Below are positions 1,979 through 55,995 of a DNA stretch of 63,777 bases, piece after piece (positions within the stretch are counted from its first letter, which is position 1; every line of letters starts with the position of its first letter). The notes beneath the pieces are model-generated. The model saw only the letters and a list, made by a program, of their open reading frames with translations, did not search any database and was not told the origin of the DNA. The stretch spans positions 1-63,777 of the forward strand of contig CALSCO010001053.1 of NCBI GenBank assembly GCA_943704415.1, read 5' to 3'. Position numbers and translations under genes: made by a program. The stretch comes from Parvularia atlantis. Lineage: Eukaryota; Opisthokonta; Rotosphaerida.

Positions 1979-2212
1979 CTGCAGCGGAAGCGGGCGCCGG
2001 AAGCGCGCGGTCGCGTTCACGCAACAGCGTGGCTGGCCCGCGCGAAAAGTGTGGCTGCTCCTCGTTTGCTTTGCCTTGCGCCTTCTCCGCGCACGCGCTT
2101 TGCCTCGCCCTCGCCCTCGTCCGGCTCACGTGCGCGCGCGCGCACGCCCCCCCCCTTCGCGTGCCCGGCAGCAGCGTCCAGCGCGCGGCAAGGCAAGCAG
2201 AAAACGGCGACC

Positions 2213-2918
2213 ATGGCGGACGAGACGACGTCCGCGATCGGCGGGCCGCGCGCGTGGGGCCAGGGCTCCCGGCTCAACTTCAAGGAGCAGACGGTGGATG
2301 AGCGCTACGGGCTGCCCGAGAACTTCCTGGAGATCGAGGTCCGCGACCCGCGGTACCACGGCGAGGGCCGCTCGAGATACGTCGACTACGAGATCCACGT
2401 GATTGTGCGTGGCCGCTTTTTTTTTTTTTTTATCTTGCGTCGCGTGTGCGCGTGTTGTGTGGCGGCCGTTGCGCCTCACCGCCGCCCCGCCGCCTCTCCG
2501 CCGCCGCGCAGACCAACATCCCCGCGTTCAAGAAGCAGGAGTCGTCCGTGCGGCGGGTGCGCGCCTGCGGGGGGGCGCCGCGTGCGCGTGCTGATAAACG
2601 CGCCACACCGCAGCGCTACAGCGACTTTGAGTTTCTTAGGGACGAGCTTGAGCGGGAAAACACGCGGGTCAACATCCCGCCGCTGCCGGGCAAGCGCCTC
2701 ACGCGCAACCTCGACCCGGACGTGATTGAGGAGCGCCGTCAGGGCCTCGAGCGCTTCCTCAACGTGTACGTGGGCGCGGAAGCGGCGCGCGGGCGGGCGG
2801 CTGACGCACACAGTGGCCGCCGGCCAGCGTCGCCGGCCACCCGCTCATCCAGACGGGCTCAAAGATCCTGAGCGACTTTATGCAGAGCAGCGACTGGTCC
2901 AAGGACAAGTACCTGTGA
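2213..2918 (+). CDS. SNX3: Sorting nexin 3/12 (Grd19-type PX protein)
   Basis: A small PX-domain protein that binds PI3P on early endosomes and works with retromer in retrieval to the Golgi. Four exons, with introns at about 2405-2511, 2557-2613 and 2766-2827. Visible features are the N-terminal [16 protein letters not shown] lead-in, [16 protein letters not shown] (PI3P-contacting RRYSDFE), the proline-rich loop IPPLPGKRL, and [12 protein letters not shown] followed by VAGHPLIQT. The protein ends shortly after the PX domain, as in SNX3/SNX12/Grd19. The first intron carries a T15 tract. The ATG at 2213 is the first in frame and gives a normal-length N-terminus. The next gene downstream is on the same strand, 334 bp away. 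Confidence 0.94.
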
Positions 2919-3252
2919 AACCTCGCCCGCTCGCTCGCCCGCCTGCGTGCGCGCTGGCCTTCACCCCGCGTCGTATCTGTTTGCCTCGTCACTCGCCCCT
3001 CCAAATCTCACTTCCTTTGTGTGGGTGTGCGTGCGTGCGTGTCGTTGTTTTTTGCTCCCTCTATGCCATCACAGAGACACATCGAAGGGGGCAGGGCATT
3101 GCCCAGCGTGAGGTGGTAGGTGGTCGTGGTCGTGTGGTCGTGCAACACGCAGCACGCCACGCGAGATCACGGCCGTGACTGCGCATGTGGCATGCTGACA
3201 CATTTCAAAGGTGCTGACACCAACCAAACCTCGCGAATCTTCCGCCGCCGAC
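2919..3252 (+). other. Intergenic spacer (3' end of SNX3, 5' region of small acidic gene)
   Basis: This 334-bp stretch has no recognisable coding region or RNA gene on either strand. It holds pyrimidine-rich sequence and a run of GTGTG/GTGCGTGCGT repeats, and presumably carries the SNX3 3' UTR and the promoter of the following gene. No clear poly(A) signal or TATA box is seen. Confidence 0.5.
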
Positions 3253-3923
3253 ATGGTTCTGAAGGAGCCCACGCACAAGAAGAACGACCCGCGCCGCGGC
3301 CGCGTCGCGGACGACCGCATGCAGCGCCCGCGCAGCAAGAAGGGCCGCGTCGGCTACAGCGGCCTGGCCTACGTGAAGCCGTGCGTCGCACAAAAACGGG
3401 GGTGACGCGCTGAAGCTGAGACCGGGACGCGCGCGCGCACAGGCACGAGGCCAAGCACGGCGCCGGCGGCAAGTTTGTGGTGCGCGTGCGAGGCATGCCG
3501 CGCGACGGGTGGACTCGCTGACGGGGCGCGGCAGTGGGGCGACGCGGCCGCCGACATCAAGGAGTTTGAGCATGTCAGCGCGACCGTCGCGGCCGACGTG
3601 CGTCTGTTTTGCCGTCCGGGCCGCACGGCACTGACGTGCGCTGCGCACAGGCGCTTCTGAACGGTGCGCCGGCCGGCGTCGTGCCGTTCGCCGCGCCGAC
3701 AAACCCGGAGGGCGAGGCGACGCCGATGAACATGCCGAACGACGACGCGTACGACTACAATGAGGACGAGGAGGAGTACGACGACGAAGTCTACGAGGAG
3801 GACGAGGACAGCGCGGCGAACAACACCGCGGGCGAGCAGCAGCAGCAGGAGCAGCAGAAGAACAACGGCGCGCTGCTGGCGACGATGGCGCACGTGCCGC
3901 AGACCATCACGACCGCCTCGTGA
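3253..3923 (+). CDS. Small acidic protein with a GGKFVWG motif (PDCD4/HABP4-like tip)
   Basis: Four exons (introns about 3381-3442, 3480-3534 and 3598-3650) encode a basic N-terminus (MVLKEPTHKKNDPRRGR), a joined motif HGAGGKFVWGD, and an acidic Asp/Glu-rich tail with a short poly-Gln run, ending TMAHVPQTITTAS-like sequence. GGxGGKxxWG is the short conserved patch in the N-terminus of PDCD4 and in HABP4/SERBP1-type mRNA or ribosome-binding proteins; here it forms only when the second intron is removed. There is no folded domain I recognise. Role in translation or RNA binding is inference from that patch. The third intron could use an earlier donor (3574) in the same phase. Confidence 0.6.
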
Positions 3924-8655: not shown

Positions 8656-8742
8656 GCAAGAATGACACTCACCGGTGTGGGTAGCGGACTTCAAATCCGT
8701 TGGCGAGGCAACTCGCAGCCGTTCAACTCGGCCTTTCTTGCG
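8656..8742 (+). tRNA. tRNA-Sec (anticodon TCA)
   Basis: An 87-nt gene, the same length as animal tRNA-Sec without CCA. The acceptor stem is 9 bp (GCAAGAATG with CTTTCTTGC, including the T.T mismatch at pair 8 typical of eukaryotic tRNA-Sec). The long D-stem has 6 bp (ACTCAC/GTGGGT with loop CGGT). The anticodon arm is GCGGA-CTTCAAA-TCCGT with TCA in the loop. The long variable arm is GCGAG/CTCGC, and the 4-bp T-stem GCCG/CGGC encloses TTCAACT. The discriminator is G. It reads UGA as selenocysteine, being charged with serine and converted via phosphoserine. It follows the kinase gene by 26 bp and precedes a T16 run. Confidence 0.96.
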
Positions 8743-51290: not shown

Positions 51291-53698
51291 ATGCGCGTGC
51301 TTGCGGCTGTCGTGTTCGTCGCGGCCGTCGCCTCGGCGGCCCTCGCCGTGGTGCGCGCGGCGCGCAGTCAGCCCACCGCGCCGGGTGCTGACTGCGCGCC
51401 GCAGGAAAACTGCAAGGTGTTTGACCCGGTCAACGGCGAGCAGTACGACCTCAACCCGCTCGGCAAGACGACCGGGTGCGGCGACGTGGCACGCGGCGTA
51501 CAGCCGCGCACGTGCTGACGCGGCGCGCGCGACGCAGCAACTACGTCGTCTCGACCGCGTACGCCAACGGCGACCCACAATACAAGTACCTGCTCAACAT
51601 CTGCCGCCCGCTCAACGCCAACACGGTCACGACGACCTCGGGCGACGTCAAGAGCTGCCCGACGACGTGGGAGGTGCGGCCGCCGCCCGCCCGCCTGCCC
51701 GGGGTCCTGACCGCCCTCCGCGCCCCGCAGGTCTGCCAGGTCGACGTCAAGTACAGCGACAGCGAGCCGAAGAACCTGGGCACGTACGGCGGCGTTGTCG
51801 TGCCCGTTGTGCTCGCGCGCGGCCAGCTCATGCTCAACTATACGAGCGGCGACCTGTGCAACCGCCTGCAGAAGGCCCGCACCACGACCGTCCTGCTCGA
51901 GTGCGACCCGAGCGCGGGCATGGGCCAACCCGTGTTTGCGACCGAGGCGCGTCTCCGCGTCACGCGCACCGCGGCGCGCGAGGCTGACCGCGCCGGACGC
52001 GCAGACTTCGTGCACGTACGTGTTCAAGTGGAAGACGTCGGCCGCCTGCGGCGTCAAGGTCACGCCGCCATCGTCCACGCCGCCGCGCAACTGCGAGGTC
52101 GTCGACAACGCCGCCAAACTGCGCTACGACCTCACCGCGCTGTCCATGTCGTCAGGTGCGCCGCCCCGCGCAGTGCCGTGCTGTTTGCGCATGCGCGCTG
52201 ACGCAGCGGCCCCGATCAGGCAACTGGATCATCTACGACGACGACTACCAGTACGCGCTCAACGTCTGCCGCGACCTCAACGGCCTCTCGCAGTGCGGCA
52301 GCGGTGCGTCTGCCGGCCCCGCTCGCACGATCGCCAACCGGCTGCGCAGGGTCCGGCGCGTGCCAGCTCAAGCCGTCCGACTCGTCCTTCGCCAAGAGCC
52401 TCGGCACGTCCAGCGCGCGCCCGACGCTCACCGCCGACGGCGTGCTCACGCTGCAGGTGGCGTCTGCGCCGGGCGCCCCTTTCGCACCAACTCACGCCGC
52501 GCCCTGCAGATGACCGGCGGCAAGGCATGCCAAGGCGGCACGGTGACGCGCACGGCCACGATCGTGTTTGAGTGCCTGCCCGGCGAGGGTGCGTCGCTGC
52601 GTGTGTCCGCGCCGCGTGCTCACAGCTCACGCAGGCCTCGGCAAACCCGTGTTTGTTGACGAGACCGACAACTGCGAGTACATCTTCTCGTGGGCGTCGG
52701 CGGCGGCGTGCGGCGAGCCCACGGGCGAGGCGCGGCCGTGCACCGTCAAGGACTCGAAGACGCAGAAGAAGTACGACCTCACGAGCCTGGCCCTGCCCAA
52801 GAGCGCCGCGAAGAACTATGTCATCTCGAGCCTGGTGGCGGAGGACGTGCGGTACCAGTACAAGATGAACGTGTGCAACTCGCTCGCCTCGGCCGACAAC
52901 GACTGCCGCGACGGCGTCGCCATCTGCCAGGCCGACCTGTCCGGCGACCAGGCCCCGCGCTCGCTTGGCAGCGTCGCGAGCCTCGCAGGTGCGTCGGCCA
53001 GCATGCCAGCTGCGCCTGCTCATGCGCCGCACCAGTGGTCGACGGCAACGTCGTGGCCACGTACATGGACGGCGACCGCTGCGAAGACACGGGCGGCCGC
53101 GTGACCACCGTCATCTACTACACGTGCGACCCGACCGCCGGCGTGGGCACGCCGCGGTGTGTGTGGCGTGCGGCTGCTCGTCGTCGCGGCTGACCACGCG
53201 CGCGTCCAGCCTGATCACGGCCATCGACGACTGCGAGTACATCATGACCTGGCGCAGCGCCAGCGCCTGCCCGAGCGACTACGTGGCGCCCACGGGCTTC
53301 GTCGACCCTGGTGCGCCCGTCGCGTGCCGCCCGTTTGCGCTCGCCCTGACGCGTGGAGCACAGGCACGTCGGGCAGCGGGCCGAACATTGCGCTGATCGT
53401 CATGCTCGTGCTGCTGTCGCTCGTCGTGCTCTACTTTGCCGTCGGGACGCTGTACAACCGCTCAAAGGTGCGCGCACGCCCATGCAGCGGCGCGTGGCTG
53501 ACGAGCGCGCGCGCGCCTCAGGGCCTCAAGGGCGTTGACCAGGTCCCGCACTGGGACCTGTTCCAGGCGGCGTACTACACCGTGCTCGAGTCCTGCGTGC
53601 GTGCCTGCGACGTGCGCGTGTCGTGCGCCGGCGCTGACGGCCGAATCGCACAGTCTCGCGGCCGGTCGTCGTCGGGCGGTGGCGCCATCCAGCTGTGA
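51291..53698 (+). CDS. Mannose-6-phosphate-receptor-like protein with three MRH domains
   Basis: A type I membrane receptor for lysosomal or Golgi sorting. Signal peptide VLAAVVFVAAVASAALAVV. Then three MRH units, each of form C..(D/N)..YDL..L...Y...(N)(I/V)C..L: unit 1 CKVFDPVNGEQYDLNPLGK with YKYLLNICRPLN and VLLECDPSAG, CTYVFKWKTSAAC; unit 2 NCEVVDNAAKLRYDLTALSM, YQYALNVCRDLNG, IVFECLPGE, CEYIFSWASAAAC; unit 3 KKYDLTSLALPKSA, YQYKMNVCNSLAS, CDPTAGVGTP, CEYIMTWRSASAC. The Q/R/E/Y sugar-binding pattern of MRH is partly visible (E in LLEC, Y in CxYxFxW). One transmembrane helix NIALIVMLVLLSLVVLYFAV is followed by a tail with GLKGVDQVPHWDLFQA, similar to M6P-receptor/Mrl1 tails. At least ten introns. 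Confidence 0.85.
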
Positions 53699-53754: not shown

Positions 53755-55959
53755 TCATGCTGGGGCGAGCCCGGCCGGCACGGGCGCCGGCGCGGTCTCG
53801 GTCACGGGCGGGGCGCGCGCAGCGTGCGCGGGCGGCGCACCCACAGACGGCAGCTTGCTCGTCTCCTTGGCCTCGAAGAAGGTGTACGAGAGGATGAGCG
53901 AGTCGACGCCGCGCATCTTGGGGTCGTTCTCAAACTCGGGATCAATGTAGAAAAACACGGGCATGTCGACCTCCTCGTGCGCGTTCAGGCGCTGATACTC
54001 GAAGCAGTTGTGCACGACCAACCCGTTGGCCAGGAACGCGTGCGTGCGCGGCACGCTCAGATCGTACGTGCGGCGCGCGCCGGCACCCGCGCGCCGAGCC
54101 ACCTTGAGACGCAGCACGGGCCCCGCGGCCGCGCGCCGACCCTCGTGGACCGCGAACAGCTCGCGCGCGCCCACCGCCTTGAGCCAGTCGTCGATCTGTG
54201 TCGCAGCCGCGCCGCTGCCGGCCCGCTGTATGCGGTGCCAGCACGCCGCCGCCGTCAGCCGCATGGTCTTGCAGTACGCGTAGCGGAAGCCGATGCGCTC
54301 GGCAAAGTGCACCGTGTCGCGCGCCAACAGACGCAGGCACAGCACCACGCCCTTCGTCTCGGCGCCCTTGACGAGGCCAATGCTGCTAGGGGCGAGGCCA
54401 AAGTCGCGGCTGAGCACGTCGCGCATTGAGCATAGCAGCGTCTTGCCGGCGCGACGATGACGACGGTCCACGACGAGCAAGAGCTGCAGCGCCTCGAAGC
54501 GCACGTCGGCCCTAGACCCGGCCAGCGCCGGCGCCTTGCCGCTACCGCCGAAGAAGGCCGCCACAAACTCGCGCTTGACGCACAGCGGGGTTGACGCCGA
54601 TGTCACAAGCCGCGGCAGCACCGGTGCGTCACCCGCTGCGCCGCTGTGCTCGAGCAGATCGCGCGACAGTGCGCGACCCAGGGCGACCCGGTACGCGCCC
54701 GCGGCACCTGACGGCGCGCTGACGGCAGCCGCGCGGTCGACACCGAACGCGGCCAGGTCGTGCAGCACAGCGTCGACGTCGAGCTGGTGTTCGAGGTGCA
54801 GCGACGCCTCGCTGGTGTGCAGGCAGCCCTCCGCCAGTGCCCGGCCGAGCAACCGCACAAAGGCGAAGCAGGCGTCGCGGTCGCGCTCGAGCGTCAGTGT
54901 CCGGCCGAGGTGCCTCAGCACAACCGTGAAGGCGTCGGCGGCCGAGGGCGCGTCGCGCACGACGTCGGGGCCGCAAAGCACGCGGCACGCGTCGTCGTCG
55001 AGGGGCACGTCGCGCGCCGCCAGCCAGCCGCGCGTCGTCAGCAGCCGGTGGTCGTCCGTGCACACGAGCTCGCGGCCGTCCTCGAGCGAAACGGTGACGC
55101 ACGCCTTTGTGCCCTGCACCAGCAGCCTGTCGCTGACACCGGCCACAACCCCACCTGCGCGCGCACGCCCGCTCAGCAAGCGCGGGACGGCGGTCGCAGC
55201 CGCACGCGCACCGGCTGCGTTTTCGGCGTACGACAGGATGGGGTGCGAGCCGTCGACGTCCTCGATGGCGCGCCCGAGCCCGTCCACGCCGGCCACGACG
55301 CTGCCGGCGGCCAGGCAGAAGCACTGGATCTTGTTGAAGTAGGCCGCGGCGCGGTCGGGCGTGACGTTGTACGAGGCGATGCCGGTGATGTCGCGGTCGG
55401 TCAGGTTGGTCGCGGTGTAGAACGCGAGCGCGGTCTCGCCGGGCACGATGCGCAGCTCGTGTTGCTGCGGCCGGAACGTCCACTGCAGCTGGTCGCTCAC
55501 GTCCGCGTTGAATTGGATGCGCAGCGTGCGCCCGTTCTCGACCTGCACGCGCCCGTGAGCACAGGCCGTTGCGCGGCCAGCCGGCAAAGCCACGCACCTT
55601 CTTCAAGGGCTTCTGCTCGTCGCCATCCCGCGTCCCGCCCTTGCCGTGGCCGATCTTGGGCGTGCCCGCAAAGCCCGTGACCTGGCAGAACAGCTTGTAC
55701 AGCGGCACTGCGCCAGCGCGCGCGTGAGCCGCGCCATCCTCCACGTGCTCGCACACATGCGCACCCGCGGCGTAGCTCAGCCCGACGAAGCCGACGACGA
55801 CCGCCACGACGTACATCACGACGTTGCGGTTGCGCTGCCGCTGCTGCTGCTGCTGCTGCTGCTGCGCCGCCGTCCCGGCCCAACGTACGGCCAGGCGCGG
55901 CGCGATCGGCCCATGCGACAGCAGCCGCGCACGTGACCAACGCATCAGGCTCGCCGCCA
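53755..55959 (-). CDS. COX11: Cytochrome c oxidase assembly protein COX11 containing an intein
   Basis: COX11 puts copper into the CuB site of cytochrome oxidase from the intermembrane-space side of the inner membrane. Start MAASLMRWSRARLLSHGPIA, an Arg-rich presequence with a Q run, one membrane segment NVVMYVVAVVVGFVGLSYAA, then (intron 55708-55764) VPLYKLFCQVTGFAGTPK, (intron 55543-55597) VENGRTLRIQFNADVSDQLQ, WTFRPQQHELRIVPGETALA, FNKIQCF. The frame then runs through 437 intein codons and resumes CFEYQRLNAHEEVDMPVFFY, IDPEFENDPKMRGVDSLILS, YTFFEAKE. The host parts fit human COX11 closely. The joined motif is IQCF-CFEYQ, the copper-binding CFCF. The Ala/Pro-rich C-terminal tail is longer than usual. 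The start is 36 bp from the divergent AK-HSDH gene. Confidence 0.95.
54007..55317 (-). mobile_element. Intein in COX11 (Hint + degenerate DOD endonuclease), 437 aa
   Basis: In-frame insertion with every splicing block: residue 1 Cys in CLAAGSVVAG (block A), block B GRELVCTDDHRLL with the TxxH motif at 87-90, and blocks F/G TYDLSVPRTHAFLANGLVVH ending Asn 437, followed by Cys+1 of the host. Block H-like IGFRYAYCKTMRLTAAAC precedes. Between B and F lies about 320 residues with two LAGLIDADG-like pieces: FVRLLGRALAEGCL (152-165) and REFVAAFFGGSGKAP (249-263). The second has GGSG where active enzymes have DxDG, so homing nuclease activity is probably lost. It is not a spliceosomal intron: there is no GT at its start or AG at its end, and the frame is open throughout. 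Base use matches the host genome, suggesting long residence. Confidence 0.95.
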
Positions 55960-55995
55960 TGCTTTGAAATCCGCGAACCTCGGCGAGAGCCGGCG
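55960..55995. promoter_or_regulatory. 36-bp divergent spacer COX11 / AK-HSDH
   Basis: 36 bp separate the two start codons. The sequence holds TTTGAAATCCGCGAA but not the TTCGARWGTCGA element found in three other divergent spacers of this window. No TATA box. Confidence 0.4.

Follow-up and report, generated by a model that had tools for sequence, protein, structure and literature searches.

The stretch analysed here, referred to below as the window, is a 63,777-nucleotide contig of Parvularia atlantis. Its minus strand carries a gene for the mitochondrial copper chaperone COX11, with the ATG at 55960 and the stop codon ending at 53755, and the coding sequence is interrupted by an in-frame insertion with the anatomy of an intein. 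The parts of the gene are the following (aa, amino acids).

53755..55960, minus strand: COX11 gene model from ATG to stop, three exons, 697-aa precursor, 260 aa without the intein, recognized by Pfam PF04442
55765..55960, minus strand: exon 1 of the gene model, with a presequence-like N-terminal stretch (predicted localization), a poly-Q tract and a hydrophobic segment
55708..55764, minus strand: predicted intron 1, 57 bp, GT-AG (SYAA^VPLYK)
55598..55707, minus strand: exon 2 of the gene model (VPLYKLFCQVTG...PLKK)
55543..55597, minus strand: predicted intron 2, 55 bp, GT-AG
55318..55542, minus strand: N-extein part of exon 3, ending in YFNKIQCF, where Cys-2 is the first cysteine of CFCF
54007..55317, minus strand: intein, 437 aa, from translation, profile matches and homologues
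55315..55317, minus strand: Cys1, the first nucleophile, from translation
55048..55059, minus strand: block B TDDH, intein residues 87-90, with Cys86 just before it, from translation
54823..54855, minus strand: LAGLIDADG-like motif 1, RLLGRALAEGC, acidic position E (by eye), from the modelled fold
54538..54573, minus strand: LAGLIDADG-like motif 2, REFVAAFFGGSG, acidic position S (by eye), from the modelled fold
54007..54012, minus strand: His436-Asn437, the C-terminal pair of the intein, from translation
53758..54006, minus strand: C-extein, which opens with CFEYQ and whose Cys+1 is the second CFCF cysteine, from translation and homologue alignment

Read on the minus strand, the insertion at 54007..55317 is as the original prediction had described it: 437 codons in frame and free of stops, opening with CLAAGSVVAG, carrying TDDH and closing with FLANGLVVHN directly before Cys+1. 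The flanks are those of COX11 (PF04442 at 1.2e-46, in two stretches). The insert splits the CFCF motif, the copper site of COX11, as IQCF/C...HN/CFEYQ, and CFCF is restored when the exteins are joined. Each of the 120 relatives listed for the joined protein (the best 120 of 7964 matches, from 8000 candidates scored) has an uninterrupted CFCF. Both small introns were placed without RNA, by the criterion that conserved COX11 residues be joined, and these two GT-AG introns, which lie upstream of the insert, identify the gene as eukaryotic. A PF04442 profile search of the 16.25-Mb assembly, which is possibly incomplete, returned three pieces, all belonging to this one gene, and no second COX11.

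Homologues interrupted at the same site, which the original prediction had proposed to look for, were found in two records. P0004, from Sorochytrium milnesiophthora (Blastocladiomycota, Blastocladiales), carries an intein of 431 aa at the same residue; its source labels it COX11, and the name does not mention the intein. P0003, a JGI (Joint Genome Institute) metagenome protein, carries one of 516 aa, also at the same residue. They were the sole returns at E <=0.001 in a protein search with the COX11 intein in which 8000 candidates were scored. Over the aligned intein columns, the P. atlantis insert is 62% identical to that of P0004 and 66% identical to that of P0003. When P0004, which has the same junctions, was aligned to the solved CtaG structure 1so9, the break fell in CFCF. 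In the six frames of the window, 18 runs of 437 codons or more are free of stops, so that such a length is not unusual there. The case for an intein therefore rests on homology and on the shared COX11 insertion.

The residues of class 1 inteins, namely Cys1 and a terminal His-Asn followed by Cys+1, are present in all three COX11 inteins, and block B reads TDDH in P. atlantis, TEDH in P0003 and TDDH in P0004. Comparison of the insert with intein models, as had been suggested, gave matches to TIGR01443 above its cut-off of 15.6 (29 bits with the insert alone and 33.6 with the whole frame), and P0003 and P0004 were above it too. NCBIfam models of RtcB-type inteins also matched, as did solved inteins in profile comparisons. 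Several observations weigh against an intein. PF14890 recognized the insert alone significantly (2.9e-8) at 34.1 bits, just under its curated cut-off of 35.8 (the P0003 and P0004 inteins scored 33.3 and 35.8). TIGR01445, which covers the N-terminal region, stayed under its cut-off of 24.5, with 15.1 bits or, in another search, 18.2. Block A commonly reads CxxxDT in inteins, and here it has no acidic residue at that position. A whole-precursor structure model built from three sequences was poor (predicted local distance difference test, pLDDT, 34.8), and even in the better, intein-only model the splicing domain, where a HINT fold would lie, was of low confidence; the rows of the fold comparison cover mainly residues 128-398. 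With these points counted in, we put at about 0.94 the probability that the sole COX11 gene found in this nuclear genome is interrupted by a cis-splicing intein of class 1 (Cys1) that contains a LAGLIDADG endonuclease domain. The full intein in a nuclear-type COX11 that had been proposed is thus supported by its class 1 residues, its LAGLIDADG core, the finding of the host gene only once and the two related inteins that occupy this site elsewhere.

The modelled centre of the intein has a double LAGLIDADG core fold similar to that of PI-SceI, the yeast VMA1 intein; this core was usable in the model built from a five-row intein alignment. PI-SceI sits in a different host and is 12% identical over the aligned part. 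The acidic positions of the two motifs, assigned by eye, are E and S in P. atlantis, Q and C in P0004, and D and D both in P0003 and in an intein of a bacterial glycine dehydrogenase (GcvP, described below). Thus, P. atlantis lacks the pair of catalytic aspartates that the longer P0003 intein has. In both comparisons with the P. atlantis intein, the splicing blocks were better kept than the nuclease region. The endonuclease of P. atlantis is therefore probably degenerate and inactive, judging from its motifs, and selection on splicing with nuclease decay in two of the three COX11 copies would be the simplest reading.

If the insert is an intein, the entire 697-aa precursor would be translated, an N-S acyl shift at Cys1 would be followed by transfer of the chain to Cys+1, and Asn437 would cyclize with the help of His436. 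An S-N shift would then join CF to CF and restore the copper site. The intein is probably a mobile element that reached the gene by homing, and the nuclease of the P. atlantis copy would since have lost the acid of motif 2. Its persistence would be explained by the difficulty of losing it precisely, together with the need for COX11. Production of COX11 through protein splicing would follow from this anatomy: no other route to the protein is evident, since no precise GT-AG removal of the insert is available and COX11 was found once.

The insert might instead be an intein that has decayed and lost the ability to splice, leaving COX11 broken in P. atlantis. The nuclease motifs are indeed degenerate, and the search found no further COX11 from which to tell whether the gene is needed or dispensable. 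Nevertheless, all the splicing nucleophiles and assisting residues are intact, the splicing blocks are the best-kept part of the insert, and the exteins are intact and conserved, with 63/75 and 46/51 residues identical to those of P0003. We consider such decay very unlikely. Removal of the insert from the RNA as an intron is less probable still. The gene does contain two small GT-AG introns, and there are six in-frame GT-AG pairs no more than 30 bases away from the insert junctions, but each of these six would retain at least CLAAGS and delete at least the CFE that follows the insert. Exact excision is possible in five equivalent registers, none of which (0/5) has GT-AG ends. Moreover, the insert is kept as protein in three genes, with the splicing residues kept best of all, which an intron would not need. 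An assembly chimera at 54007 or 55317, or a contaminant contig, is hardly credible despite the division of the assembly into 616 contigs, as identical junctions occur in P0003 and in P0004, whose gene sits on a 521-kb S. milnesiophthora contig, the G+C content continues through the insert, the introns are of eukaryotic type, and a neighbouring frame has CIMR (mannose-6-phosphate receptor) repeats.

In a COX11 tree of 25 rows (the three intein holders and 22 of the 120 listed relatives), in which most supports are weak, P0003 stands beside P. atlantis (92/89), and P0004 is placed apart on a long branch, separated from them by COX11 proteins that have no intein. The ratio of intein to extein distance was 2.78 for P. 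atlantis and P0003, against 1.09 and 0.88 when either was paired with P0004, and in 2000/2000 bootstraps the P. atlantis-P0003 ratio was the largest of the three. The P0003 intein was closer to that of P0004 than to that of P. atlantis in 1412/2000 bootstraps, and its extein in 0/2000. These values hint at horizontal movement of the intein, which we do not claim: over the splicing domain only, the distances were 0.161, 0.231 and 0.231, and saturation or a change of rate could produce the same.

In a tree of 10 inteins, the three COX11 inteins formed one group (100/100), with the inteins of eRF1, of RtcB (the second of two, RtcB-b) and of GcvP beside it in an unsupported branching order; the VMA1, RtcB-a and PRP8-2 inteins formed a separate group (100/100). 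BLAST with the COX11 intein gave 5e-25 for GcvP, 3e-24 for eRF1 and 1.5e-6 for RtcB-b. The eRF1, RtcB-b and GcvP inteins are thus of the same family and on the same side of the tree, but they have different hosts and about 24-33% identity to the COX11 intein. The GcvP intein (L082:3001-4599) has 533 aa, LHKTF/C...HN/CIPHGGGG, and comes from a proteobacterial metagenome-assembled genome; its host we take to be glycine dehydrogenase from recognized flanking residues. With 30-33% identity, it is the best prokaryote relative found, in a scan with two peptide patterns that returned 17 loci. A scan of viral contigs, covering 34 loci of the 311 stretches with a pattern match, did not indicate a viral source, the best viral match reaching 46.6 bits versus 96.7 for the bacterial locus when frames of at least 250 codons were rescored. 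By these sequence comparisons, the family of the COX11 intein spans domains of life, with transfer conceivable in either direction.

The assembly was searched by family profile and with single proteins, the best candidates were scored and their frames were read. We counted 14 inteins in eight genes (COX11, eRF1, two in RtcB, six in PRP8, VMA1, RPA2, CIA2 and RPC1), and more may exist. Besides COX11, they are the following.

L002:1378-2670 (G000:C118): eRF1 intein, 431 aa, SLYL/C...HN/CDNKFHTE, kin to the COX11 intein; host domain eRF1_1 at 22.8 of 23.8 bits
L017:944-1966 and 2075-3784 (G000:C309): two RtcB inteins of different families, 341 and 570 aa; RtcB domain by Pfam
L032 and L033 (G000:C417:8659-21558): six PRP8 inteins, 462, 407, 549, 612, 316 and 505 aa
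L031:4128-5258 (G000:C381): VMA1 intein, 377 aa, VYVG/C...HN/CGERGNEM, presumably at the classic VMA1 site; ATP-synt_ab by Pfam
L042:1946-2773 (G000:C596), minus strand: insert resembling an intein, in the gene of a CIA2/MIP18-like iron-sulfur assembly protein, 276 aa, PTIPH/C...GN/CSMATLIG; FeS_assembly_P at 22.4 of 23.5 bits
L043:1231-2523 (G000:C239): RPA2-like intein, 431 aa; Rpb2 domain 6, weak intein-model matches only
L006:1492-2562 (G000:C613), minus strand: RPC1-like (largest RNA polymerase III subunit) intein, 358 aa; Rpb1 domain 4, with domain 5 below cut-off

Ten of the 14, including that of COX11, match intein or Hint models (PF14890, PF05203 or TIGR), those of RPC1 (29 bits, 1.1e-6) and COX11 falling below the PF14890 cut-off. 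The PRP8-1, PRP8-6, RPA2 and CIA2 inserts alone had no significant match to an intein or Hint model in Pfam or NCBIfam: their best Pfam matches were LAGLIDADG_3 at 0.057, zf-H2C2 at 0.014, PT-HINT at 0.027 and none relevant, and NCBIfam matched RPA2 only, at 0.0046. In a PDB profile search with the RPA2 and PRP8-1 inserts only, RPA2 matched a mini-intein at 0.023 and PRP8-1 had no match. The grounds for counting these four were their host flanks, Cys1, termination in Gly-Asn and BLAST similarity to one another (PRP8-1 with PRP8-6, 1e-23; CIA2 with PRP8-1, 6e-12; RPA2 with PRP8-1, 6e-4). The count of 14 may be too low, as it covers the best candidates only, or too high should any of the four inserts that lack a model match prove not to be an intein; the COX11 intein is unaffected by this.

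A host domain was detected by Pfam in four of the six PRP8 frames (PROCN in PRP8-1 and -2, U5/U6-snRNA in PRP8-4 and U6-snRNA in PRP8-5, the last at 24.4 of 29.8 bits) and none in those of PRP8-3 and -6, and an intein-type model matched four of the six inteins. The finer names RPA2, RPC1, CIA2, PRP8-3 and PRP8-6 are our assumptions, from recognized flanking residues. An apparent intron abuts the start of the RPA2-like intein (NMYQ^C). The putative RPC1-like intein is odd: it has Ser1 but lacks TxxH, and it seems to end in Arg-Asp before Thr if an intron is assumed at the junction. By BLAST, the inteins fall into COX11, eRF1 and RtcB-b; VMA1, RtcB-a and PRP8-2 to -5; PRP8-1, PRP8-6 and CIA2, with RPA2 weakly attached; and RPC1 on its own. 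Between the first two groups there are matches that are short and weak. The second RtcB intein seems, by eye, to retain D in both LAGLIDADG motifs. A protein search with the eRF1 intein, among candidates of about 288-915 aa, a range that a longer eRF1 could escape, found no intein-bearing eRF1; its one weak match (1.2e-4) was a protein with PF02867, which we take to be a ribonucleotide reductase domain. One further match, on C317, was judged by eye to be due to chance: it scored 15.4 bits, nominally above the cut-off, with an E value of 0.63, in a 116-aa frame of cysteine-rich, coding-like sequence.

The frames with CIMR repeats that adjoin COX11 lie at 51476-53104 of the window, on the plus strand. 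The window also contains a selenocysteine tRNA at 8656-8742 on the plus strand (ARAGORN; Rfam RF01852, 74.1 bits). The selenocysteine trait is said, in the available part of one paper, to be missing from most fungi (PMC10778597), which makes this tRNA notable in a fungus-like genome.

The commonest nuclear intein hosts given in the available text of a 2018 survey are PRP8, VMA1, RNA polymerase subunits, ThrRS, GLT, CHS and eIF5B; 'cox', 'eRF1' and 'release factor' are missing from its main text, and the most inteins that the available text gives for one nuclear genome is three (PMC5784728). Across species, seven intein sites are described for PRP8 in the part available of another paper (PMC6805012). 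An RNA polymerase paper, as far as its accessible text goes, has an RPA2 intein ending in Gly-Asn and does not mention RPC1 (PMC1635734). As these partial sources describe them, the fungal nuclear inteins of PRP8, VMA1 and RNA polymerase are the same kind of element, inserted at conserved positions of active sites and in many cases with a LAGLIDADG nuclease (PMC5784728, PMC6805012, PMC1635734), but in other host genes than the COX11 intein. Searches of the open literature, as far as its available text reaches, returned no report of COX11, eRF1 or RtcB as intein hosts in fungi, including Blastocladiomycota and early-diverging fungi, nor any paper under the species name Sorochytrium milnesiophthora. 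The expectation that COX11 would be new as a host agrees with this search. By its sequence the COX11 insert appears clearly to be an intein. We found no earlier report of this host, and the surprise lies in the site of the intein and in the other inteins that accompany it.

Splicing might act as a gate, set by copper or redox state, on the assembly of cytochrome oxidase, a bold idea that we regard as unlikely. If metal or oxidation at the cysteines stalled splicing, activation of COX11 would be confined to favourable copper and redox conditions. The splice site has Cys-2, Cys1 and Cys+1, two of which are COX11's own copper ligands, and block B adds Cys86. As a cysteine also precedes TxxH in the eRF1, RtcB-b and GcvP inteins, Cys86 is a trait of the family and not specific to COX11. 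The PRP8 intein of Cryptococcus is reportedly inhibited by copper, probably through cysteine oxidation, according to the available part of the paper (PMC6805012).

The list of intein hosts thus gains a nucleus-encoded mitochondrial copper chaperone that is interrupted at the metal site itself. This raises the question of whether a protein bound for the mitochondria is spliced before or after import, and of control by copper or oxidation. The three copies of the COX11 intein resemble stages of nuclease decay. With 14 inteins counted in eight genes, six of them in PRP8, the assembly would offer a natural system for the spread of inteins within a nucleus.
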